Assembly (NCBI GenBank): GCA_028344575.1
Contig: JAOMBO010000003.1
Coordinates: forward strand, 62,001-126,000
Direction: 5' to 3'
Source of the DNA: Candidatus Nitrosopelagicus sp.
GTDB lineage: Archaea > Thermoproteota > Nitrososphaeria > Nitrososphaerales > Nitrosopumilaceae
Length of the DNA stretch: 64,000 nt
The position numbers and the translations under genes are program-made. Each line of letters begins with the position of its first letter. Positions within the stretch are counted from its first letter, which is position 1. This document shows, one piece after another, positions 29,750-42,301 of this stretch. Below the pieces are notes generated by a model that saw only the letters and a list, made by a program, of their open reading frames with translations, ran no database searches and was not told the origin of the DNA.

Positions 29750-29824
29750 TTTTTTTCCTATATGTTTATTCTATAAATCTCCATTGGCAAGTAATTAATA
29801 TTACAAACTATTGAAACTATTGAA

Positions 29825-30529
29825 ATGAAATGTGTCATTTTGGCAGGTGGATATGGCACTAGAATTACTGAAGAATCTTATTTGAAACCAAAACCTATGA
29901 TAGAGATTGGTCAAAAACCAATATTATGGCATATAATGAAAAGTTATTCTACATATGGCATTAATGATTTTATAATTTGCTGTGGTTATAGAGGAGATGT
30001 CATAAAAGAATATTTTGAAAAGTATGATTCGGATTCATGGAATGTAGACCTTATGGATACAGGGGAAAATACAATGACAGGAGGAAGATTGAAAAGAATT
30101 GAAGAAAAAATAGATAATACATTCTGCGTAACATACGGAGATGGATTAAGTAACATCAATATTAAAAAATTAATTGAGTTTCATAATGACCAAAAAACTA
30201 TTGCAACATTAACTGCAGTTCATCCTCCGGAGAGATTTGGTATATTGGATTTATCCGGAGACTATGTGAAGGAATTTCATGAAAAGTTTAGTGGAGAATC
30301 ATCATGGATAAATGGAGGATTTTTTGTCTTTGAGCCAGAAATTTTTAGATATTTGAATGAAGGAGATTCAACTGTATTGGAAAAAAAACCTATGGAAAAT
30401 TTAGCGAAGGAGAATGAATTAACAGCATTTAGACATAAAGAATTTTGGCATCCTATGGATACATTAAGAGATAAGAATCATTTAGAAAAATTATGGAGTT
30501 CTCAAAATCCACCATGGAAAAACTGGTAA
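29825..30529 (+). CDS. rfbF: Glucose-1-phosphate cytidylyltransferase
   Basis: Forms CDP-glucose from CTP and glucose 1-phosphate. 234 residues (usual ~257; slightly short in the loop regions). Motifs LAGGYGTRITEESYLKPKPM (residues ~6-25), GQKPILWHIMKSYSTYG, FIICCGYRGDVIKEYF and VTYGDGLSNINI with the metal Asp. First gene of the sugar cluster; 1 bp before rfbG. In known pathways the product goes to CDP-glucose 4,6-dehydratase, as here. Confidence 0.94.
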   Translation: MKCVILAGGYGTRITEESYLKPKPMIEIGQKPILWHIMKSYSTYGINDFIICCGYRGDVIKEYFEKYDSDSWNVDLMDTGENTMTGGRLKRIEEKIDNTFCVTYGDGLSNINIKKLIEFHNDQKTIATLTAVHPPERFGILDLSGDYVKEFHEKFSGESSWINGGFFVFEPEIFRYLNEGDSTVLEKKPMENLAKENELTAFRHKEFWHPMDTLRDKNHLEKLWSSQNPPWKNW

Positions 30530-30530
30530 A

Positions 30531-31640
30531 ATGCACATAGAAGATACATTTCATAAAATCTTTAGAAATAAAAATATCTTCATAACTGGTCATACGGGGT
30601 TTATAGGAACTTGGTTGTCATTATGGCTAACATTATTGGGTGCAAATGTTACAGGATATTCATTAGGATATCCCACAAGACCTTCGTTTTTTGAAATAAT
30701 ATCCTTAGAAAATGAAATTAATCATATCGAAGGAGATTTACAAAATTTTAAAAAAATTTCACAATGTATCAATGAATGTAGTCCGGATATTGTATTTCAT
30801 CTTGGAGCGCAATCACTTGTAAGAAAATCATATGCGGAGCCACTAAATACATTAAACACAAACATACTTGGAACTGCTAATTTGTTAGAATCAGTTCGAA
30901 ATTGTAAAAATATCAAAGTCACTATTAATATGACTAGTGATAAATGCTACGATAACACATGTAGTGAAAAGCCACATTCGGAAAATGATCCGATGGGAGG
31001 ATTTGACCCATATAGTGCCAGTAAAGGAGCATCAGAATTAATTACATCATCCTACAGAAATTCGTTTTTTAATTCTAAAAATTCCTGTAAAATAGCAACC
31101 GTGAGATGTGGGAATGTTATTGGAGGAGGAGATTGGTCAGATGATAGAATAATTCCTGATTCAATTAAAGCATTAACAAAAAAACAAAATATCAAAATTA
31201 GAAATCCTGCTGCAACAAGACCCTGGCAATATGTTTTAGAATCAATTTCAGGAATATTGTGGCTAACTACCACTATGTTGGAAGAAAAAGGATTTGATGA
31301 GGCATGGAATTTTGGCCCAAATGCAAATAATACAAATTCTGTATCCGTGGAAAAATTAGTGAAGAAAATGATCACTATTTGGAATTCAAAAAATATAATT
31401 GAGATGCAAAATACAAATAATGAGTTTCATGAATCAAAATTATTGGTTCTTGATTCATCAAAGGCCAATACAAAATTAAAATGGAAAAATGTTTGTTCCA
31501 TAGATGAAGCAATAACTGAAACTGTGGAATGGTATAAAAAATATGAAAAAGATAATGAAAAAATGAATGAATTTTCAATTAATCAAATTAAGAAGTATGT
31601 TAATTTGGCAGGACAAAGAGATTTAATCTGGACTAAATGA
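30531..31640 (+). CDS. rfbG: CDP-glucose 4,6-dehydratase
   Basis: NAD-dependent extended SDR converting CDP-glucose to CDP-4-keto-6-deoxyglucose. 369 residues. Motif FITGHTGFIGTWLSLWL (~16-32), SDKCYDN with catalytic Thr/Asp-Lys region, and DPYSASKGASELI holding Tyr-x-x-x-Lys (~155). RCGNVIGGGDWSDDRIIPD is characteristic of RfbG. The gene is followed after 9 bp by the DegT-type gene. Establishes that the cluster makes a CDP-activated 6-deoxyhexose. Confidence 0.95.
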   Translation: MHIEDTFHKIFRNKNIFITGHTGFIGTWLSLWLTLLGANVTGYSLGYPTRPSFFEIISLENEINHIEGDLQNFKKISQCINECSPDIVFHLGAQSLVRKSYAEPLNTLNTNILGTANLLESVRNCKNIKVTINMTSDKCYDNTCSEKPHSENDPMGGFDPYSASKGASELITSSYRNSFFNSKNSCKIATVRCGNVIGGGDWSDDRIIPDSIKALTKKQNIKIRNPAATRPWQYVLESISGILWLTTTMLEEKGFDEAWNFGPNANNTNSVSVEKLVKKMITIWNSKNIIEMQNTNNEFHESKLLVLDSSKANTKLKWKNVCSIDEAITETVEWYKKYEKDNEKMNEFSINQIKKYVNLAGQRDLIWTK

Positions 31641-31649
31641 GAAAATCTC

Positions 31650-32855
31650 ATGAGTACAAATTTAGATGAATTACGTGTACCATATGGATTAGCAGTTCAT
31701 GATGAAGAAGAAGAAAATGCAGTTCTTGAAATAATAAAAAACAAAAAAACAATCATGGGTGAGAAAGTAAAACAATTTGAAAAAAATATTGCAGAAATAT
31801 TTGCAAAAAGGTTTGGTACAATGGTTAATTCAGGGTCATCTGCAAATCTATTAGCATTTGAAGCACTAAATTTTCCACATAATTCCGAAATCATTACACC
31901 CATTCTTACATTTGCAACTACATTATCCCCAATTATTAAAAAAGAACTCACTCCAGTTTTCGTTGATGTCGAACCTGAAACATTTATTGTAAATGTTGAT
32001 CAAGTTGAAGAATCCATCACGAGCAATACGAAAGCTTTGATGATTCCATCACTTTTAGGAAATATACCGAATATGAAAAGATTAAGAAAAATTGCAGACG
32101 ATAATAATTTGACGTTTATTGAAGATTCTGCAGATACACTTGGTGCAACATACGATAATATGTCAACTGGAAAATATTCTGATATATCTACTACAAGTTT
32201 CTACGGATCACATATAATTACGGCTGCAGGTGAAGGAGGAATGATTTGTTGTAATGATCAAGAATTAGATGAAAAATTTCGAATTCTACGTGGATGGGGA
32301 AGATCATCGGCATTAAATGAATCTGAAAAAATTGAAGAACGATTTAATGTCGAATTAGATGACATTCCATATGATTCAAAGTTTATTTTTGAAGAAATTG
32401 GATATAATTTTCTACCTACGGAAATTAGTGCAGCATTTGGATTAATACAATTAAAAAAATTAAAAGGATTTGCAGAAATAAGAGAACAGAATTTTACAAA
32501 ACTTTTCGAATTTTTCCAAAATCAAAAATTCTTTAAATTACCAAAACAGCTACCGGAAGTAAAGACATCTTGGCTTGCATTTCCATTGACAATTGATTCA
32601 AATGCACCATTTTCCAGAATAGAAATTGTCAAATATTTAGAAGCACACGGAATTCAAACAAGACCAGTATTCACAGGTAATGTTTTACGTCAACCGGCAT
32701 TCAAAGAAATAAATTTTAAGAATTTAGGTCGCGACTTTGATGTGACAAATAATATAATGAAAAATTCATTTTTGATTGGTTGTAATCATGGATTAAATGA
32801 CGAACATATTAAAAAGATGAAAGATGTGTTTAAAACATTTCTTGATAAATTTTAA
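31650..32855 (+). CDS. DegT-fold CDP-4-keto-6-deoxyhexose 3-dehydratase (RfbH/ColD-like)
   Basis: 401-residue PLP-fold protein. The Schiff-base lysine of DegT aminotransferases is replaced by His188 in SFYGSHIITAAGEGG, the hallmark of the 3-dehydratases RfbH/E1 and ColD, which use PMP to remove the C3 hydroxyl. RfbH/E1 also carry four cysteines for a [2Fe-2S] cluster after the GxWGR motif; here RGWGRSSALNESEK has none, so it should work like ColD, without Fe-S. Product would be CDP-4-keto-3,6-dideoxyglucose. C-terminal FLIGCNHGLNDEHI is family-like. No reductase E3 gene is present. Confidence 0.88.
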   Translation: MSTNLDELRVPYGLAVHDEEEENAVLEIIKNKKTIMGEKVKQFEKNIAEIFAKRFGTMVNSGSSANLLAFEALNFPHNSEIITPILTFATTLSPIIKKELTPVFVDVEPETFIVNVDQVEESITSNTKALMIPSLLGNIPNMKRLRKIADDNNLTFIEDSADTLGATYDNMSTGKYSDISTTSFYGSHIITAAGEGGMICCNDQELDEKFRILRGWGRSSALNESEKIEERFNVELDDIPYDSKFIFEEIGYNFLPTEISAAFGLIQLKKLKGFAEIREQNFTKLFEFFQNQKFFKLPKQLPEVKTSWLAFPLTIDSNAPFSRIEIVKYLEAHGIQTRPVFTGNVLRQPAFKEINFKNLGRDFDVTNNIMKNSFLIGCNHGLNDEHIKKMKDVFKTFLDKF

Positions 32856-32877
32856 TCTAAGAACATACTGAAGAGAT

Positions 32878-33546
32878 ATGCAAACAAAAACAGCATTAAT
32901 TACAGGCGCCTCTAGAGGAATCGGTAATTCGATAAAAGAGAATCTTGAAAATGAGGGAATAAGAATTATCAGTCCTTCACGTAATGAACTTGATTTATCA
33001 CATTCAGAATCAATAGACAAATTTCTATCTCAAATATCCTCAGATATAGATATCATAGTAAATAATGCAGGTATGCTGAAAGTGGGAAAATCAACCGAAC
33101 TATCAACAAAAGATTTCCAAGAAATATTACAAGTAAATGTGATAGCACCATTCCAAATAATTTCTGGAATCGTCGAAAAAATGAAACAGCGAAAATATGG
33201 ACGGATAGTGAATATTAGTTCCATTTGGGGACAGAAATCAAAAAATGGCCGAAGTCTTTACTCTACTAGTAAATCTGCATTAGATGCGTTAACAAGATCA
33301 CTTGCCATAGAATTTGCAACATATGGTATTTTGATCAATTCAGTTGCTCCAGGATATATTGAAACAGATATGATGAAACAATATAACTCTGAAAAAGAAC
33401 TTGCGATGATTAAAGAAAATATACCGATGAAACGATTTGGTAAAAAAGTTGAGATCTCAGAATTAGTGAAATTTTTGTGCTCAGAAAAAAATTCATACAT
33501 AACGGGACAAATTATCACGATCGATGGAGGATATGTCTGTAAATAA
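32878..33546 (+). CDS. Short-chain dehydrogenase/reductase
   Basis: 222-residue classical SDR. TGASRGIGNSI (~9-19) cofactor motif, NNAGML, and catalytic Ser-Tyr-x-x-x-Lys in NISSIWGQ...LYSTSKSALDAL (~138-160). The closing IITIDGGYVCK is typical. Within the sugar cluster it may reduce a keto group after chain branching (compare YerF in yersiniose synthesis) or a C4 ketone. Stands 22 bp after the DegT-type gene. Confidence 0.9.
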   Translation: MQTKTALITGASRGIGNSIKENLENEGIRIISPSRNELDLSHSESIDKFLSQISSDIDIIVNNAGMLKVGKSTELSTKDFQEILQVNVIAPFQIISGIVEKMKQRKYGRIVNISSIWGQKSKNGRSLYSTSKSALDALTRSLAIEFATYGILINSVAPGYIETDMMKQYNSEKELAMIKENIPMKRFGKKVEISELVKFLCSEKNSYITGQIITIDGGYVCK

Positions 33547-33594
33547 TAAGATCATTACCGCAATAATTTTTAGATATCATTACAGAAAACTAAT

Positions 33595-34770
33595 ATGAAA
33601 AAATTATCTGAATTATCTAACAGAATAGATGGTCAACCAATGTTCAAATTACTTGAAAAGGTGAAAGAATTAGAATCGAAAGGACAGCATATTATTCATT
33701 TTGAAATTGGAGACCCAGATTTTCAAACTCCACAAAATATTTCTAATGCAGGAATAAAAGCAATCAAAGAAGGGGTTACACATTATGTTAGTTCATTTGG
33801 ATTTACAGAATTTCGAGAAAAGATACGTGTCGCTACAGAAAAATCAAGAGGTTTTAAACCCGATTTAGATCAAGTGCTCATAACACCGGGTGCAAATATA
33901 GCAATATTTTATGCAATAAGTTGCATTGTTAATCCGGGCGAAGAGATTATTTTACCAGATCCAGGATTCCCGACATATTATTCAACAATCAAAATGTGTA
34001 ACGCAATACCTGTAAGAATACCACTTCTCGAATCAAATCAATTTAGAATGAATCCAAAAGATATAGAAAAATCAATTACAGACAAAACAAGAATGATTAT
34101 AATTAATTCTCCACAAAATCCAACTGGGTCTGTAATGACGAAAGAGGAAATTGAAAATACATATGAAATTGCAAAAAAACATGATGTTTATCTTTACAGT
34201 GACGAAATTTATGCCCGAATGATCTATAAAGATGCGGTTTTTAGCTCACCATCAATTTATGATAAATGTAAACAAAATACAATTATTTCAAATGGATTTA
34301 GTAAGGCATTCGCCATGACGGGATGGCGATTAGGAGCAGTTATTGGTCCAACACAAATTATTGAAAAAATGAGACTGTTACTAGAAACTACATCATCATG
34401 CGTACCACCATTTATTCAAAAAGCAGGAATAGAGGCTATCGAAGGAGAACAATCATCACAAAAAAAGATGTATGATGAATATGAGAGTAGAAGAGATAAG
34501 ATTGTTAAACGTATTAATTCAATTTCAGGATTAAGCTGTGTTACACCAGGAGGGGCATTTTATATTTTTGTCAATATTAAAAAAACCGGAATGACCAGCA
34601 ATCAATTTTGCGAATACATGCTAAATGATGCAGGAGTTGCAATGTTGCCGGGCACTAGTTTCGGAAAATTTGGAGAAGGGTTTGTTAGAATTTGCTATGC
34701 AGTAGGACAAAACGATATCAATGATGCAATGGAACGGATCACAATATCAATAAGCAAGTTGGATTTTTAA
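33595..34770 (+). CDS. Class I/II aminotransferase (aspartate aminotransferase-like)
   Basis: 391-residue fold type I PLP enzyme. PLP Lys in SNGFSKAFAMTGWRLGAV (~235), Asn/Asp pair NSPQNPTGS...YSDEIYA, Tyr region HYVSSFGF. Substrate not evident; similar proteins transaminate Asp, Ala or aromatic acids. It lies 5 bp before the ThDP enzyme, so the two are coupled, and may make the 2-oxo acid the ThDP enzyme uses. Could also be a general aspartate aminotransferase placed here. Confidence 0.9.
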   Translation: MKKLSELSNRIDGQPMFKLLEKVKELESKGQHIIHFEIGDPDFQTPQNISNAGIKAIKEGVTHYVSSFGFTEFREKIRVATEKSRGFKPDLDQVLITPGANIAIFYAISCIVNPGEEIILPDPGFPTYYSTIKMCNAIPVRIPLLESNQFRMNPKDIEKSITDKTRMIIINSPQNPTGSVMTKEEIENTYEIAKKHDVYLYSDEIYARMIYKDAVFSSPSIYDKCKQNTIISNGFSKAFAMTGWRLGAVIGPTQIIEKMRLLLETTSSCVPPFIQKAGIEAIEGEQSSQKKMYDEYESRRDKIVKRINSISGLSCVTPGGAFYIFVNIKKTGMTSNQFCEYMLNDAGVAMLPGTSFGKFGEGFVRICYAVGQNDINDAMERITISISKLDF

Positions 34771-34775
34771 AAAAC

Positions 34776-36572
34776 ATGAGAGTAGCAGATTTTGTAGCAA
34801 AATTTATTTTTGAAGATCTAAAGGTCAAACATGTTTTTACATTGACAGGTGCAGGAATAATGCACTTAACAGATGGACTTGCATGTAATAATGAATTAAA
34901 AACAATCTGTCCACATCACGAACAAACGTCCTCAATGGCATTAGAAGCATATTCTAGAGCAACTGAAAATTTTGGAGTAGGATTATTTACCACAGGTCCA
35001 GGAAGTACTAATGCAATTACAGGTTTGGCAGGGGCATGGCAAGACTCAGTTCCATGTATGTTTATTTCCGGTCAAGTGAAAAAAGCAGAAGCATCATCAC
35101 TATCAAATATTAAGAATTTACGTCAATTCGGAGTTCAAGAATTAGATATTATTCCAATTGTCAAACCAATAACAAAATATGCGGTGACAGTAACAAAACC
35201 TGAAGATATACAGTATGAATTAGAAAAAGCATCACATATAGCAAAATCTGGAAGACCAGGACCAGTATGGATTGAAATTCCAATGGATATACAAAGTGCA
35301 CAAATTCCCAAAGATTTAAAAAAATATCAGGAACAGTTAGATGAACAAATTACAGTATCTGATAAAAGAATAGATGATGTTTTTAATTATTTAAAAAATG
35401 CAAAACGTCCAGTCATCATATCCGGACAAGGGATTAGAATTTCTAAAAGTATTTCATATTTATTAGAATTTGTGCAACTACTAGGTATTCCAGTAGTAAC
35501 TCCATACTTAGGAATAGATACCATCAACCATAATGAAAAATTCTTTATTGGAAAAACAGGTGTTAAAGGGGAGCGTGCCGCAAATCTTGCAATGCAAAAT
35601 TCAGATTTAATAATTTCTATTGGATCTAGTTTACACGTTTCAGTTATAGGTTATGATTATAAACAATTTGCACGAGCTGCAAAAAAAATTATAATAGATA
35701 TTGATGAAATATCACATAAAAAAAGAACCATAGACATAGACCTGTTCATTAAAGGGGATGCAAAAAACTTTTTAGAAAAATTATTAATAAAATGTAAAGA
35801 AAATGTTCCAAATGATTATCAAAGTTGGTTAAAGAAATGTAATGAATGGAAAGAAAAATATCCCACATGCCTTCCAGAATATAAAAATAGTAAAGATAAA
35901 ATAAATTCGTATTATTTTATTAATCAGGTTTGTAAGAATTCAAGTTCAAACGACGTATTTGTTGCAGATGCAGGGGGTACATTTTATGCAGTATCACAAG
36001 TAATTGAATTGACAAAACCAAATCAACGATACATACCATCAAGTGCAATGGCTACGATGGGATACAGTTTACCCGCAGCAATTGGAATTTCAATCGCAAC
36101 AAACGATAGAGTAATTGCATTTACAGGGGATGGTTCATTGCAACAAAATATTCAAGAATTTCAAACTCTTTTGGAATATAATCTACCTGTAAAATTATTT
36201 GTTTTAAATAATGATGGATATCATTCAATTAGAACATCACAAACAAATTATTTTGAAAAAAGATACATAGGTGAAAGTTCAGTATCAGGAATATCTTTTC
36301 CAGATACAATAAAGGTTGCAGAAGCGTATGGTCTCAAAACATTCAGAATTAGTAAATCAGAAGATATAGACAACACCATAAAACAGGTTTTAAATTTTAA
36401 CGGACCCGTGATATGTGAAGTAATGACCATTAGAGAACAAGAGATAATTCCTACAGTGGCATCAAGAGTAAATGAAGATGGCAGCATGTCATCAAGACCA
36501 TTAGAAGATATGTATCCATTTTTGGATAGAAAAGAATATGACGATAATATGTTTATTGAAAAAATTGAATAA
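34776..36572 (+). CDS. ThDP-dependent acetolactate-synthase-fold enzyme, sugar-branching type
   Basis: 598 residues with three ThDP-enzyme domains: N-terminal PYR domain with catalytic Glu49 (CPHHEQTSSMALEAY), a central domain (GKTGVKGERAANLAMQNSDLIISIGSS), and the PP domain with GDGSLQQNIQEFQTLLEYN and LNNDGYHSI. The C-terminus (SSRPLEDMYPFLDRKEYDDNM) resembles ThDP enzymes found in sugar clusters rather than true IlvB. No small regulatory subunit gene is near. Analogous to YerE, which adds a two-carbon unit from pyruvate to CDP-4-keto-3,6-dideoxyglucose; this role is inferred. Confidence 0.85.
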   Translation: MRVADFVAKFIFEDLKVKHVFTLTGAGIMHLTDGLACNNELKTICPHHEQTSSMALEAYSRATENFGVGLFTTGPGSTNAITGLAGAWQDSVPCMFISGQVKKAEASSLSNIKNLRQFGVQELDIIPIVKPITKYAVTVTKPEDIQYELEKASHIAKSGRPGPVWIEIPMDIQSAQIPKDLKKYQEQLDEQITVSDKRIDDVFNYLKNAKRPVIISGQGIRISKSISYLLEFVQLLGIPVVTPYLGIDTINHNEKFFIGKTGVKGERAANLAMQNSDLIISIGSSLHVSVIGYDYKQFARAAKKIIIDIDEISHKKRTIDIDLFIKGDAKNFLEKLLIKCKENVPNDYQSWLKKCNEWKEKYPTCLPEYKNSKDKINSYYFINQVCKNSSSNDVFVADAGGTFYAVSQVIELTKPNQRYIPSSAMATMGYSLPAAIGISIATNDRVIAFTGDGSLQQNIQEFQTLLEYNLPVKLFVLNNDGYHSIRTSQTNYFEKRYIGESSVSGISFPDTIKVAEAYGLKTFRISKSEDIDNTIKQVLNFNGPVICEVMTIREQEIIPTVASRVNEDGSMSSRPLEDMYPFLDRKEYDDNMFIEKIE

Positions 36573-36577
36573 AGAGA

Positions 36578-37618
36578 TTAATTTTCTAAAAAACTCAAAA
36601 TTGTTCTTGAAAATCCATGTTTAATAGAGAATTTTGGATTCCAACCTAGTCTTTTGATTTTACATATATCAGGATACTGCGTAGTGATTAAATTTTTTGT
36701 TTGTTTATTCTTTTGACTTTTTCTCTTTATAATTTTCAATTTTTTTTCAGGAAAAATATCTACGATAGTTTTTGCCAATTTATTTACACTTACAGTTTGA
36801 GAAGGATTTGAGATATTATACGCTTCACCAGTTTTACCTTTAAGTAAAATTGTGAACATTGCAGTAACAGTATCTACAATGTAACAAAACGGTCGTTCTG
36901 TTTTCCCGTTTGAATTAATTGATAAATTTTTATTTTTAATAACATCCGATACAAGTGAGGCAAAAATACGTCCATCATCTAAATTCATTGTTGGTCCATA
37001 TGTATGAAAAATTCGTGCAATTTTTACGGGAGTATTTTTTTCAGTGAACCATGATACACACATATTTTCACCCATTCTCTTGCTTTCTGCATAGCATGAT
37101 CTAGGATCAAGAGGATCCAATGAACCGAAATTATTTTCGCGGATAGTTTTTTGTTTTAAATTACCATATACAGCACCACTTGATAAAAATAAAAATGCAT
37201 TAAAATTTTCATGGTTTGAAATATCAAGTAAATTCTTAGTACCAATTATATTTGGTAATAATGTGTCTATCGGATTATCAGTATATTTTGTTGGGTCTGC
37301 AGGACTAGCCCCATGTATAATATAATTTATTTTAGTATTGATGTTTATCTTATTTACAACATCTTGATGAATTATTTTTAATGAAGAATCAGATAAATAA
37401 TTTTTAAATAATTTTTTTGCTTTTGTCTTATTTTTTACTAGCACAAAAATTTTAGATTTTTTTGGAAGAATTTTATTCAGAGTAAGTAATGTAAAAACCA
37501 TATACGAGGGTATCATTCCCGTAGCACCAGTAATTAGAATAGATTTTCCTTGAAACCTTTTCCATGGAATTGACGAATCCAATATGGAATTTATGTCATC
37601 TTCAATAATTTTGTTCAT
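36578..37618 (-). CDS. NAD-dependent epimerase/dehydratase (extended SDR)
   Basis: 346 residues. Cofactor motif ILITGATGMIPSYM (~27-40), in which the usual third Gly is Pro. Catalytic SSGAVYG and YAESKRMGENM with Tyr-x-x-x-Lys (~180) are intact, then GRIFASLVSDV and RPFCYIVDTVTAM. Variants with Ala or Pro at the last glycine occur in nucleotide-sugar modifying enzymes. It is antisense to the ThDP gene and its stop lies 6 bp from that gene's stop. Probable NDP-sugar epimerase or decarboxylase; substrate not assigned. Confidence 0.86.
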   Translation of the reverse strand: MNKIIEDDINSILDSSIPWKRFQGKSILITGATGMIPSYMVFTLLTLNKILPKKSKIFVLVKNKTKAKKLFKNYLSDSSLKIIHQDVVNKININTKINYIIHGASPADPTKYTDNPIDTLLPNIIGTKNLLDISNHENFNAFLFLSSGAVYGNLKQKTIRENNFGSLDPLDPRSCYAESKRMGENMCVSWFTEKNTPVKIARIFHTYGPTMNLDDGRIFASLVSDVIKNKNLSINSNGKTERPFCYIVDTVTAMFTILLKGKTGEAYNISNPSQTVSVNKLAKTIVDIFPEKKLKIIKRKSQKNKQTKNLITTQYPDICKIKRLGWNPKFSIKHGFSRTILSFLEN

Positions 37619-37652
37619 TCTATAAGTAATCCTTTATTGTAATTAGAAACAG

Positions 37653-38675
37653 CTAATAAAAAAGTATGAATTTAATAATTTGGAGTCCATATCTGAAAGC
37701 CTTATTTTTTTGAGTAACACCACTTTTTGAAATTCCTTTTCGTTCTTTGAAGGTTATAGGAATTTCAATTACTCTCAAATCATTTTCAATTGCACTCTGA
37801 GTAGTGAATATTGTTATTGTCACATCATCAATTCCGGTAACGAATTCATCAGTATCATTTTTAGTAAAATCACAAATTATTTTTTCCAGGGATTCACGTC
37901 GTATGCACCTATAAGAACAACCCACATCAGTTAGCTGAGTTACCCCTAAATGTCGTGAATTGAAATATTTTAGTTGAAATAGAAGTCCTAAGAATTTATT
38001 TCCCCATACAAGAAATGTATCATTTTGATTTGCTTTTTCACATAATACTTGAGCCATTCTTGTTCCTACAACCATATCACAATTTTCCAAGTACGGTATC
38101 ATTTTAGAAATATCATATCCATTGTATGTTCCATCTCCATCAGTGATCACAATAATTTCTGCATCAGTTTTCAATGCTTCTTTAAGTCCCATATGCCAAG
38201 AGTGTGCATACCCTTTATTGGAAGTTTTTGTGATTACATGTGCACCAGCATTTTTTGCTTTTTCAACTGTTTTATCATCACTATGATTATCAATAACAAT
38301 AACTTTTTCTACATATTCTTGTTTGACAAAGTCTTGAACTGTTTTTTCAATTACTTCTTCTTCATTATACGCATGCATAGTGACACAAATTTTTTTTGAA
38401 GAGAGGGGATTGTGGTTCAAGTAATGTGATAAATCAGATTTAAAATTTCTTCTTTGTTTTGCGAATACTAAAAATAATATCCACCATGATACATCAGCCC
38501 ATACAATCCATTTAAAATAAGATGAATAATAAATATCATCAAATAACTTACTAGAGCTTATAACTTCTTGAATTCCACTTGACGACCAATAAAATAAATT
38601 AATGATTATCCATGAAATATTAATAATTAATAGTGCAACAAACGTTGCAACCAATATGACATATAATTTTTTCAT
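37653..38675 (-). CDS. Family 2 glycosyltransferase with N-terminal membrane segments
   Basis: 340 residues. Two hydrophobic segments (~6-29 and ~54-70), then a GT2 catalytic domain: VTMHAYNEEEVIEKTV, VIDNHSDDKTVEKA, and DGDGTYNG (~160) as the metal-binding DxD-type site, plus TDVGCSYRCIRRESLE. Resembles dolichyl-phosphate sugar synthases that charge a polyprenyl phosphate in the membrane. It precedes the epimerase by 34 bp on the minus strand, an operon pointing away from the GT39-like gene. Confidence 0.88.
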   Translation of the reverse strand: MKKLYVILVATFVALLIINISWIIINLFYWSSSGIQEVISSSKLFDDIYYSSYFKWIVWADVSWWILFLVFAKQRRNFKSDLSHYLNHNPLSSKKICVTMHAYNEEEVIEKTVQDFVKQEYVEKVIVIDNHSDDKTVEKAKNAGAHVITKTSNKGYAHSWHMGLKEALKTDAEIIVITDGDGTYNGYDISKMIPYLENCDMVVGTRMAQVLCEKANQNDTFLVWGNKFLGLLFQLKYFNSRHLGVTQLTDVGCSYRCIRRESLEKIICDFTKNDTDEFVTGIDDVTITIFTTQSAIENDLRVIEIPITFKERKGISKSGVTQKNKAFRYGLQIIKFILFY

Positions 38676-39058
38676 GGGAATATTTCCTTAACATACAAAA
38701 AATTTGTAAAAAATGATAAGGGTGACGTTATCAAAATTTTTCCCATAATTAATTCAAAATAATGTAATTGGTATATCAATATACTGATAATAAATAATTA
38801 ATTCACTATCTAAAATTTGAAGGAAAATCATTTAACATGTACTTTACGAATAATTGATAAAATTTGAGTATTGATTAATTATTGATAGAGTCTATTATTT
38901 AATTAAGATTTTACTCTATGAATTTTTTCTTTACAGTTTAAATTATCCTGAATTTAAAAATTTTAAATTTTTTATATTATCATTATTTTTGATGTGAATT
39001 GATAATTAATTTCATTATTCATATTTTTAGAAAATATATACAGAAATATTATTAGAAC
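38676..39058. other. 383-bp AT-rich intergenic region
   Basis: No credible gene, tRNA or repeat family seen. It separates two divergent units (GT2/epimerase and the GT39-like gene), so both promoters must lie here. A short palindromic run AATTTAAAAATTTTAAATT near 38950-38975 and several ATTAAT stretches are compatible with TATA elements; none is at a clear spacing that I would commit to. Confidence 0.6.
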
Positions 39059-39082
39059 GTGATCATTTTATTAGTTACTAGA

Positions 39083-40966
39083 ATGACATTTCCCATAGAA
39101 CTTATTCAAAAGAATAAATCTTTTGACCTATGTAGTATTATTGTAACAGGTATTTTCTTTGTAACTTGCTTATCGATTGCATTAATTATTGACGAACCAA
39201 GTCAAGATTCAGACATATTATTTTACTATTTTGCAGGAAAGCAAATTTTATTGGGAGAGGGATCAAACGTTCAAATATTTAATGCCCCCGTAGGATGGCC
39301 AATACTTCTTGCAGCATTTGATTCCATAGTAGGAGACCCCTTTACCACCGCCAAATTATTTTCTGCAGTATTTTCAGCAGGAATTATTATTTTTTCATAT
39401 TTAATTATAAGAAATGTTTTCAGTCAGAAAATTGCGCTTCTAGGTCAAATCATAATTGCGGTAAATCCAATGTTGCATCTAGAATCAATCATAACTCATT
39501 CAGAGATGTTACCTGTTTTCTTAATTTTTTTCTCACTATATTTTATAACTAAAAAAAATATATCACAAAGACAAATAATATTCTGTGGAATATTATTAGG
39601 ATTATCATTTATGCTTAGGCCACAATCATTGCTGATTGGATTAGGAGTTTTATCATTCATATTATTATCTGTAAAAAAACAAAAGAAAAAATTTATTGTG
39701 TTTTTTATTATGGCATTTTTAATTACTATATCTCCATTAATGTTATACAACATATCAACAACCGGAAATATTATTGATAATGATCCAAATTTTTACCTAG
39801 TACACGATTCCGGTGTTTCAAATAGTGATTATTTTAAAAATAAGATTGTAGAAGATGGATTTTCCAAACAACCAAATCTATTGGGAGTTAACGAACACAC
39901 AGTATATTCAGACGATTATTTTAAAAATTTACTATATCATAATCCCCATCTTGTATTTAATCTAGGAGCAGGACACAATAATTTTTCAACTATACCATTT
40001 ATTGACTTCAGTGGACTTGTTCTTGTATTAGGCGGAATTATAGGATTATTTATAAGAAAATTACCCAAAAAATATTATTTAGTAATATTTGGCTTACCAA
40101 TAATATTAACAGCATTTCTTTTACTAACTGAAAACATTAATACATTTTTTTTCTTACCAATAATAATTTCAATCATCACGATTGTAGGATTCGGGTATAG
40201 AAAAATTGAAGATAACATTAAGCCATTAGTGATTATTCCATTAATTTTTATGATTTCAATATCATTTGTGAAAATTGCATCTGCTCAAGATTTGTTTGCA
40301 ATGTTAATAATACCAAGTATTTTTTCTTCATTTTTTATATTAAATACAATTCCAAATATAATTAAAAAAATTCAAGATACATTAAAAATTAATTTAAAGA
40401 TATTGACAAGTGTTGTAATAATAATAATAATTCTAACGATAGTTTCACTAAATTTAGTTTCTTCAGTTATGGTTGAAAATCATGCATTATTTGGAATTCC
40501 CGTAGATTATCATAATTTATTAAAATCAAATGAAAATCATGAATTAATTGCATTGGATTTTAAAGAAATTGGAGATGTTCTATCAAAACAACCCAACATA
40601 GAAAATAAGATCGTTATGGCAGGGAGTATGAATTATGCATATTATGCAAATAGTAAATTTATGTATACGAACTTCACTGAAGGAGATAAAAATGACACAA
40701 TTAATTCATTTATCTCGAGAATAAATTGGTCAGACTACGAATTAAAATTCTCAAATATGTCCAGCATACCACAGGATAGAAATGGAAATAATAATTCAAG
40801 CCCAGATTATCTAATATACAAAATAAATTCAAAAAATAATGAAAATTTACAAATTTTAGAAGATCCAGATAATTCAGAAATTCCTAAAAATTTTGAATTA
40901 ATCTATATCTCAAATGATAATGAGACAATTGTATACAAAATTCATGATGAAGATATAGATAATTAA
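39083..40966 (+). CDS. Polytopic membrane protein resembling GT39 glycosyltransferases
   Basis: About 627 residues from ATG 39083 (a GTG 24 bp upstream is an alternative). Roughly ten membrane helices, an early extracytoplasmic loop with EPSQDSDILFYYFAG carrying the acidic pair expected of lipid-linked-sugar glycosyltransferases, then GWPILLAAFDSIVG, and a soluble C-terminal ~150 residues. Fits the ArnT/PMT superfamily, which use polyprenyl-phosphate sugars. It likely decorates surface glycans or proteins with the sugars made here. Not certain; sequence identity to named enzymes cannot be judged by eye. Confidence 0.75.
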   Translation: MTFPIELIQKNKSFDLCSIIVTGIFFVTCLSIALIIDEPSQDSDILFYYFAGKQILLGEGSNVQIFNAPVGWPILLAAFDSIVGDPFTTAKLFSAVFSAGIIIFSYLIIRNVFSQKIALLGQIIIAVNPMLHLESIITHSEMLPVFLIFFSLYFITKKNISQRQIIFCGILLGLSFMLRPQSLLIGLGVLSFILLSVKKQKKKFIVFFIMAFLITISPLMLYNISTTGNIIDNDPNFYLVHDSGVSNSDYFKNKIVEDGFSKQPNLLGVNEHTVYSDDYFKNLLYHNPHLVFNLGAGHNNFSTIPFIDFSGLVLVLGGIIGLFIRKLPKKYYLVIFGLPIILTAFLLLTENINTFFFLPIIISIITIVGFGYRKIEDNIKPLVIIPLIFMISISFVKIASAQDLFAMLIIPSIFSSFFILNTIPNIIKKIQDTLKINLKILTSVVIIIIILTIVSLNLVSSVMVENHALFGIPVDYHNLLKSNENHELIALDFKEIGDVLSKQPNIENKIVMAGSMNYAYYANSKFMYTNFTEGDKNDTINSFISRINWSDYELKFSNMSSIPQDRNGNNNSSPDYLIYKINSKNNENLQILEDPDNSEIPKNFELIYISNDNETIVYKIHDEDIDN

Positions 40967-40990
40967 AATTAAATTTTAGAAAATTTGGTA

Positions 40991-42301
40991 TCAAGGAGTT
41001 AGTCTATCAACATCTCTTGGATAAAATGTCGTATCTCGAATATTTTCAGTTCCGGTTAGCGCCATCATTAATCTTTCAAGACCAATGCCACAACCAGCAT
41101 GCGGCGGTACACCAAAATCAAATATGTTAAGATGGTAATCAAACGCTTCAGTTTTCATACCTTTATTCTTCATTCTATCTTCTAATTCTGATTTCTTTTC
41201 AATTCTTGTACTTCCAGAAGATAATTCCAAATCCCCCCACATCAAATCAAAGGATTCAGATATTTTTGGGTCATCTTTCTTTACTTTTACATAGAATGGT
41301 TTTGGACCCATAGGCCAATCAACAATAAAGTAAAAACCACTCAGACCTATTTTTTGTAGATTTTTTGGATACAAATCATCACCCCATTGAGCCTTTACAC
41401 CTGCAGCCTGCATCTTTTCAATTAGTTCTGCATATTTGTAACGAGGTATTTTATCAGGTACATCCGGAACATTAAATTCAACATCAGGATTATCTTTTAC
41501 AAAGTTCTGAACCGTAATAATACAACTTTTGATAAGTTCTTCAATTCTATCCATGACATCGTTGTAATCAACATACGCTTCTTCAAAATCTATTGAAATT
41601 GCTTCAGACAAATGACGATTTGTTCTAGACGGTTCGGCTCTAAATATTGGGGCAATTTCAAAAACTTTTTCAAAACTCATTGTTAATTGTTCTTTGTAAA
41701 GTTGTGGACTCTGAGCTAAAAATGCTTCTTTGTTGTAGTAAAATATTGGAAATAATGCGGCACCACCTTCTGTGGCTGTGGCAATCATTTTTGGAGTATT
41801 AACTTCAACAAAATCTTCGTTTCCTAAATAATCTCGAAGTGCTTTTAATGTAACATTTCTTGCAAGAAAGATTTTTTGTAAAACATTTCGTCGTAAATCA
41901 ATTGCTCTTACCTCTAATCTAGTATCAATATTTTTTACAGTTTTTGCATATGGCTCAAATGGCGGAATTTTTTCAACTTCTGAGAAAACTCGCATCTCAC
42001 TTGGTACCACTTCTATTCCGGTTGGAGATTTTTCATTTTTTCTAGTTTTTCCAACTACTGCAATTGAAGAATGTTCTTTTAGATGTGATAATTTTTCACG
42101 TATATCATCGTCACATTCACCACTTTTTGTAATAATCTGAATATTTCCTAATTTATCACGAATTGTTGCAAATACAATATTTCCATGGCCTCGGACGGTA
42201 ACAACCCATCCCATAACAACAACATCTGTACCTTCATCCAAAGAATTTAGTTCAGTGGAATAGTGAGTTCGTCTAAGATCTCCTAGTTCCGTACCAATCA
42301 T
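40991..42301 (-). CDS. aspS: Aspartyl-tRNA synthetase, archaeal type
   Basis: 436-residue class IIb synthetase: N-terminal OB-fold anticodon domain (VVMGWVVTVRGHGNIVF) and catalytic domain with motif 2 (EIAPIFRAEPSRTNRHLSE) and motif 3 (GCGIGLERLMMALTG). Archaeal/eukaryotic type and short. Archaeal AspRS of this kind is often nondiscriminating and charges both tRNA-Asp and tRNA-Asn; with gatCAB in the window, that is likely but not proven here. Own ATG, single gene. Confidence 0.96.
   Translation of the reverse strand: MIGTELGDLRRTHYSTELNSLDEGTDVVVMGWVVTVRGHGNIVFATIRDKLGNIQIITKSGECDDDIREKLSHLKEHSSIAVVGKTRKNEKSPTGIEVVPSEMRVFSEVEKIPPFEPYAKTVKNIDTRLEVRAIDLRRNVLQKIFLARNVTLKALRDYLGNEDFVEVNTPKMIATATEGGAALFPIFYYNKEAFLAQSPQLYKEQLTMSFEKVFEIAPIFRAEPSRTNRHLSEAISIDFEEAYVDYNDVMDRIEELIKSCIITVQNFVKDNPDVEFNVPDVPDKIPRYKYAELIEKMQAAGVKAQWGDDLYPKNLQKIGLSGFYFIVDWPMGPKPFYVKVKKDDPKISESFDLMWGDLELSSGSTRIEKKSELEDRMKNKGMKTEAFDYHLNIFDFGVPPHAGCGIGLERLMMALTGTENIRDTTFYPRDVDRLTP

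Follow-up and report, generated by a model that had tools for sequence, protein, structure and literature searches.

A rare insertion in Candidatus Nitrosopelagicus carries a putative cassette for a branched CDP-dideoxysugar

The DNA analysed here is a 64,000 nt stretch of a Candidatus Nitrosopelagicus genome (hereafter the window), and it carries an island of about 11.2 kb between the genes gatC and aspS. We consider it rather likely that this island is an acquired cassette for making a putative C4-branched CDP-3,6-dideoxysugar (CDP, cytidine diphosphate) and for transferring it to a surface glycan, with a thiamine diphosphate (ThDP) lyase as the candidate branching enzyme. An initial annotation had proposed an archaeal, yersiniose-like CDP-sugar route encoded by six genes, and the archaeal host is borne out by the nearest named relatives of the window, which are Candidatus Nitrosopelagicus. 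Coordinates refer to the whole stretch, the host genome is 65.8% complete, and absences at the scale of genomes refer to targeted searches only. The island and its genes are as follows.

29755..40989, no strand: whole island, an insert of about 11.2 kb between gatC (whose end, judged by homology, lies near 29754) and aspS
29825..30529, + strand: RfbF/DdhA, glucose-1-phosphate cytidylyltransferase (TIGR02623, 344 bits against a cut-off of 300)
30531..31640, + strand: RfbG/DdhB, CDP-glucose 4,6-dehydratase (TIGR02622, 448 bits against a cut-off of 278)
31650..32855, + strand: DegT-fold 3-dehydratase of an iron-sulfur-free RfbH-like clade (E1 3bcx, 236 bits; ColD, 186 bits)
32878..33546, + strand: FabG-type short-chain reductase of 222 aa, a variable tailoring or branch-keto reductase (motifs GASRGIG, NNAG and YSTSK)
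33595..34770, + strand: class I aminotransferase, proposed to supply the alpha-keto-acid donor (closest solved fold, P. horikoshii 1gd9/1dju)
34776..36572, + strand: YerE-like ThDP lyase of the JanthE subfamily, the proposed C4-branching enzyme (assigned by sequence, tree and fold)
36578..37618, - strand: W-type extended short-chain dehydrogenase/reductase (SDR), a candidate branch-ketone reducer just outside the six-gene interval
37653..38675, - strand: membrane GT2 glycosyltransferase of the AglJ/dolichyl-phosphate type (PF00535; best NCBIfam match AglJ at 87 bits, under the cut-off)
39059..40966, + strand: GT-C-type membrane glycosyltransferase, PMT_2 (PF13231, 45 bits, above the cut-off)

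Six genes on the + strand occupy positions 29825 to 36572 and are separated by gaps of 1, 9, 22, 48 and 5 bp, as the initial annotation had described. Its assignments also hold: RfbF and RfbG were judged against curated NCBIfam cut-offs and exceed them, and Pfam recognises the FabG-type reductase, the class I aminotransferase and the ThDP-fold enzyme. The extent that it gave to the unit does not, since the functional unit runs beyond 36572 and the whole is an insertion.

The ThDP enzyme has 8rph as its best solved relative (412 bits, ahead of the second chain at 268), which is the YerE-like enzyme JanthE (PMC12188165). Pairwise, it scores 404 bits against JanthE (about 38% identity), 257 bits against PpYerE (33%) and 221 bits against the IlvB of its own genome (28%). 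In a tree holding JanthE, PpYerE and IlvB, it lies on the JanthE side with support of 100/99, and the PpYerE branch and IlvB fall outside. A Foldseek search with the predicted structure also returned 8rph first and JanthE chains on top, which is supporting evidence only because the alignment behind the model contained JanthE-like sequences. Catalytic Glu49, G451-D452-G453 and Asn478 are retained, as are the equivalents of JanthE V121 and Y297 (V120 and Y293), whereas the canonical GDG of the window enzyme is CDG in JanthE, and K567 and H494 of JanthE are replaced by T560 and T487 (JanthE residue numbers in the published paper are one lower than in one of our analyses). The PpYerE used here is 5ahk, which we take to be that enzyme because its PDB title fits (P. 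protegens AHAS Pf5, acetohydroxyacid synthase); the code 5AHK was not found in the papers searched. According to a review, a PpYerE structure exists (PMC12247030).

By these comparisons, the ThDP enzyme belongs to the YerE-like lyases and is nearer to JanthE than to YerE proper. The best NCBIfam match, acolac_lg at 400 bits, could instead be taken to mean an acetolactate synthase or another lyase of central metabolism that neighbours sugar genes by chance. However, the match falls short of the curated cut-off of 538, the genome encodes IlvB separately, on contig C15 near a 2-isopropylmalate-synthase-like gene, and both tree and fold place the enzyme with JanthE and not with IlvB. We regard this explanation as very improbable, and an IlvB or passenger AHAS was rejected on these grounds. 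Searches of plasmids returned only ordinary AHAS and ordinary aminotransferases. Elsewhere in the host genome, a third TPP_enzyme_N match (G000:C3:5493-5711, L003) is weak, at 20.7 bits, and under the cut-off.

A scan of 84,980 species with two short peptide patterns yielded 76 related loci, or 77 with the window. Near the ThDP gene, rfbF is found in 64 of these, rfbG in 65 and rfbH in 69, a recurrence which argues that the gene run is no chance arrangement and which strongly supports a CDP-4-keto-3,6-dideoxyhexose as the acceptor. It is a well-supported prediction from sequence that the ThDP enzyme acts on CDP-4-keto-3,6-dideoxyglucose. At the locus closest to JanthE itself (L052, 98.6% identical), rfbF, rfbG, rfbH, MhpF, MhpE and a W-type SDR surround the ThDP gene. 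Three Pseudomonas loci (L035, L040 and L044, 6200-9815) have a YerE-type enzyme, 69-70% identical to 5ahk, adjoining a JanthE-like one in a single rfbFGH cluster.

The DegT protein carries His at the catalytic Lys position, aligned with E1 His220, so the His-for-Lys exchange noted in the initial annotation stands. Its score with the RfbH model is 340 bits, below the cut-off of 423. The four iron-sulfur cysteines of E1/RfbH (Cys193, Cys251, Cys253 and Cys261) are all intact in 63 aligned sequences. All four are replaced in the window protein, in that of the congeneric species G144 and in that of contig L019, and three are lost in L085 and L023. These five dehydratases make up one clade that neighbours RfbH/E1 and excludes ColD (support of 96 in the Shimodaira-Hasegawa-like approximate likelihood ratio test, SH-aLRT). 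The L085 and L023 proteins (L085:1458-2681 and L023:8045-9292) are iron-sulfur-free RfbH-like dehydratases from Aquirickettsiella and a betaproteobacterium, respectively, outside the aminotransferase group described below. ColD, a GDP-4-keto-6-deoxymannose 3-dehydratase (GDP, guanosine diphosphate), likewise has His for Lys and no cluster; it uses glutamate and needs no E3, whereas E1 requires E3 (PMC8987622). The window protein may act on a CDP sugar by a mechanism like that of ColD, although ColD itself acts on a GDP sugar and the window protein lies nearer RfbH in the tree, outside the ColD clade. No DdhD/E3 reductase was found among the island open reading frames (the remaining genome was not searched for E3), an absence that is a weak criterion because only 22 of the 77 related loci have E3 nearby.

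What the ThDP enzyme adds to the sugar may be read from the slot beside its gene. In 62 of the 77 loci, MhpF (acetaldehyde dehydrogenase) and MhpE (4-hydroxy-2-oxovalerate aldolase) are encoded no more than 8 kb from the ThDP gene, and at least one of them is close to it in 61 of the 77; at L026 both exceed their curated cut-offs. This linkage fits reports that JanthE and ErwE accept 4-hydroxy-2-oxo acids (PMC12247030, PMC12188165). Five loci have a close aminotransferase, namely three from Nitrosopelagicus (the window and two congeneric species, G144 and G107, records L020 and L021), contig L019 and Methylophilaceae LSUCC0401 (L022), and the MhpE/F pair is missing from all five. An aminotransferase at L050 was left out of this group, being 23% identical and apart from the ThDP gene. 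No MhpE above the cut-off was found in the window genome, G144, G107 or the complete LSUCC0401 genome.

A scan of IMG/VR added 34 loci, in which the slot holds a NeuB-type enzyme (12), MhpE/F (11), an HpcH/HpaI-type aldolase (4), PanB (1) or an aminotransferase, 43% identical (1). Altogether, exactly one of these five classes occupies the slot in 97 of 111 loci, two do so in none, and 14 have none of them; the counts are not independent, because several IMG/VR loci are near-duplicates. The MhpE/F, NeuB, HpcH-type, PanB and aminotransferase families each make an alpha-keto acid. The aminotransferases of the five clusters group in a single clade (SH-aLRT 100), away from general enzymes, and their nearest solved relatives, 1dju and 1gd9, have been called aromatic or aspartate aminotransferases. 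A housekeeping copy was ruled out, the next paralog in the genome being about 34% identical. Because the aminotransferase fills a slot that elsewhere belongs to keto-acid makers, we infer that it supplies the keto-acid donor. If so, the branch is probably something other than the two carbons of pyruvate, and the octose of the initial annotation is no longer the best guess.

A broader proposal follows the same pattern. In a modular YerE-like system, the partner gene (an aldolase, sialate-synthase-type, ketopantoate or aminotransferase module) would decide the branch, and the archaeal island would be the aminotransferase version, adding an amino-acid-derived branch after iron-sulfur-free 3-deoxygenation of a CDP sugar. 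We give this generalisation close to an even chance.

The locked pairing of aminotransferase and ThDP gene also fits an enzyme that acts on the ThDP product. On that account, pyruvate, which is freely available and is accepted by YerE and JanthE (PMC12247030), would be the donor, and the aminotransferase would afterwards aminate the branch ketone, or a keto group elsewhere, to give an amino-branched sugar. The aminotransferase here is of the class I amino-acid type, the slot elsewhere is occupied by keto-acid makers, and the ketone reductases present lessen the need for amination. For sugar ketones, the usual aminating enzymes have the DegT fold. We judge amination after branching unlikely and retain the reading in which the aminotransferase makes the donor.

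Two reductases could act on the branch. The short SDR is present in the window and in G107 and absent from G144 and L022; in IMG/VR clusters of the NeuB type, distantly homologous genes come after the ThDP gene. The second candidate, the W-type SDR at 36578-37618, has D-type counterparts at sister loci, W- and D-type being distantly related extended SDRs that keep SSG..Y..K and lack the Asp-Glu dehydratase pair. Among the 77 loci, a W-type enzyme is near the ThDP gene in 29, a D-type in 24, both in 0 and neither in 24; the probability of such exclusivity under random assortment, with shared descent ignored, is 6e-7. The two types are swapped between close relatives (L052 and L057; L035/L044 and L040; the window and G144). 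These features suggest that the W-type SDR is a candidate for the reductase role that fits at least as well as the short SDR.

The second reductase also bears on a strict yersiniose pathway, in which the branch would be the two carbons from pyruvate, the short SDR would be YerF, the product CDP-yersiniose A and the aminotransferase a passenger. In its favour, the locus has rfbF and rfbG together with a 3-dehydratase, a reductase and a YerE-like enzyme. Yet the ThDP enzyme is closer to JanthE than to YerE, the 3-dehydratase lacks the iron-sulfur cysteines, and the G144 cluster has no short SDR. Furthermore, each of the five close-group loci, one of them bacterial, keeps the aminotransferase next to its ThDP gene, so the aminotransferase is no passenger. 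We find this pathway decidedly unlikely, and the yersiniose-like order of the initial annotation gives way to a locus nearer to JanthE, with no E1 iron-sulfur cysteines, no adjacent E3 and a second reductase candidate.

The pathway that we favour would have seven steps. RfbF would make CDP-glucose and RfbG would convert it to CDP-4-keto-6-deoxyglucose. The iron-sulfur-free DegT enzyme would then strip the C3 hydroxyl in the manner of ColD, giving CDP-4-keto-3,6-dideoxyglucose, with pyridoxamine phosphate regenerated from glutamate and no E3. An amino acid would be turned into an alpha-keto acid by the class I aminotransferase, and the ThDP lyase would decarboxylate this keto acid and attach the acyl unit at the C4 ketone, leaving a tertiary alcohol and a keto branch. 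The branch ketone would be reduced by the W-type or the short SDR, and the sugar would finally be loaded and transferred by the GT2 and GT-C proteins. The analysis establishes the gene content, the enzyme families, the catalytic residues, the neighbour statistics and the insertion. From the third step to the seventh the substrates are tentative, and so are the choice of keto acid and the placement of the sugar at the surface.

Several observations weigh against this pathway. The aminotransferase could be aminating the branch instead of making the donor. The FAD (flavin adenine dinucleotide) contacts Y268 and P293 of JanthE align with K264 and S289 in the window enzyme. The same ThDP branch holds relatives that adjoin NeuB without a full rfbFGH set (L076), so that phylogeny alone does not fix the acceptor. 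The cassette is rare, occurring in 3 of 31 genus genomes. Lastly, L022 combines aminotransferase and ThDP enzyme with an RfbH of the canonical iron-sulfur type, which makes the two novelties independent of each other. L022, together with L085, which has an iron-sulfur-free dehydratase and MhpE/F, also rules out an aminotransferase that compensates for the lost iron-sulfur cluster.

The two glycosyltransferases extend the cassette beyond the six genes. Homologs of the GT2 protein occur at two sister loci (49% and 74% identical), and the G144 cluster holds a gene similar to the GT-C; there, the GT-C-type gene consists of two overlapping open reading frames (L016:3243-5146), possibly through a frameshift. 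Known PMT_2 proteins depend on polyprenol phosphate. The sugar may be displayed at the cell surface. Glycoproteomics found N-glycans in Nitrososphaera viennensis and none in Nitrosopumilus piranensis (PMC12153357); no glycoproteomic study of an island-bearing Nitrosopelagicus was found among the open-licence papers searched.

In four relatives, gatC and aspS are at most about 40 bp apart, and the alignment to the window stops at 29754-29760 and resumes at 40990-40995. Because this site is empty in those relatives, the window carries an insertion of about 11.2 kb. Two other relatives have different cargo there, about 4 kb in G019 (a pentapeptide-repeat-like protein) and about 2 kb in G107 (a stomatin-like protein), and the junction (window 29755-40989; L135; L136), empty in several Nitrosopelagicus genomes, appears as an insertion hotspot. 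G144 has its cluster copy elsewhere, on contig C12, and its gatC-aspS site is empty. The island has a slightly lower G+C content than the remaining window (29.2% against 32.3%); no tRNA lies within it, and a scan for Sigma-70-type promoters and terminators showed no excess. The ThDP gene is present in 3 of 200 family genomes and, among 398 phylum genomes, only in that of the window. The cassette is rare in the genus and horizontally mobile.

An apparent transfer between Nitrosopelagicus and the gammaproteobacterial metagenome-assembled genome SP3050 (72% identity) was discarded as evidence, because contig L019 has 31% GC in a bin of 52-56% GC. This contig (L019/L140, PBGU01000041.1) differs in that respect from two other contigs of the bin, its tetranucleotides are much closer to Nitrosopelagicus than to its own bin, and it is probably misbinned archaeal DNA.

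The grouping with JanthE and the RfbF and RfbG scores support the earlier claim that an archaeon has a CDP-sugar route involving a YerE-like ThDP enzyme. JanthE, from Janthinobacterium sp. HH01 (8rph, 8rpi and 8rpj), is the nearest solved enzyme in sequence and fold, and its relatives too lie in rfbF/G/H clusters, but JanthE-type loci hold MhpE/F where the window locus holds an aminotransferase. With the CDP-yersiniose A pathway (ddhA-D, yerE and yerF; Yersinia pseudotuberculosis O:VI and Pseudomonas), the proposed route would share CDP-glucose, 4,6-dehydration, C3 deoxygenation, ThDP-dependent branching and reduction. It differs in an iron-sulfur-free 3-dehydratase, an added aminotransferase and a ThDP enzyme that lies outside the YerE branch and is no YerE ortholog. 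It would be a YerE-type pathway in kind, but it falls outside the definition of the yersiniose pathway. Two further YerE-like enzymes, ErwE (erwiniose, Pectobacterium) and MMAR_2332 (caryophyllose, Mycobacterium marinum), are reported to use keto acids longer than pyruvate (PMC12247030); both are bacterial, unlike the window enzyme.

No archaeal example of YerE-type branching was found in the open-licence PMC literature. We rate the novelty for archaea as moderate only, because that literature and a genome scan with two short peptide patterns were what was covered. If the proposed pathway is true, YerE-type C-branching of sugars extends from bacteria to archaea. In addition, the suggested donor rule, by which the gene beside the lyase predicts the branch, would apply to most uncharacterised YerE-like clusters, and it is directly testable because more than 200 YerE-like enzymes have been predicted and few products assigned, according to a 2025 review (PMC12247030). 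Surface-sugar genes also appear to come and go at one chromosomal site in marine ammonia oxidisers, and we speculate that this turnover could bear on virus resistance or on ammonium capture by the surface layer.

JanthE-like ThDP genes also occur on IMG/VR contigs classed as viral and up to 327 kb long (L147-L180), many of them together with RfbH and an enzyme that makes a keto acid (NeuB, HpcH, MhpE/F or PanB), and phage-like genes stand beside one of them at L172. Phages may thus make C-branched sugars, perhaps to decorate virions or DNA.

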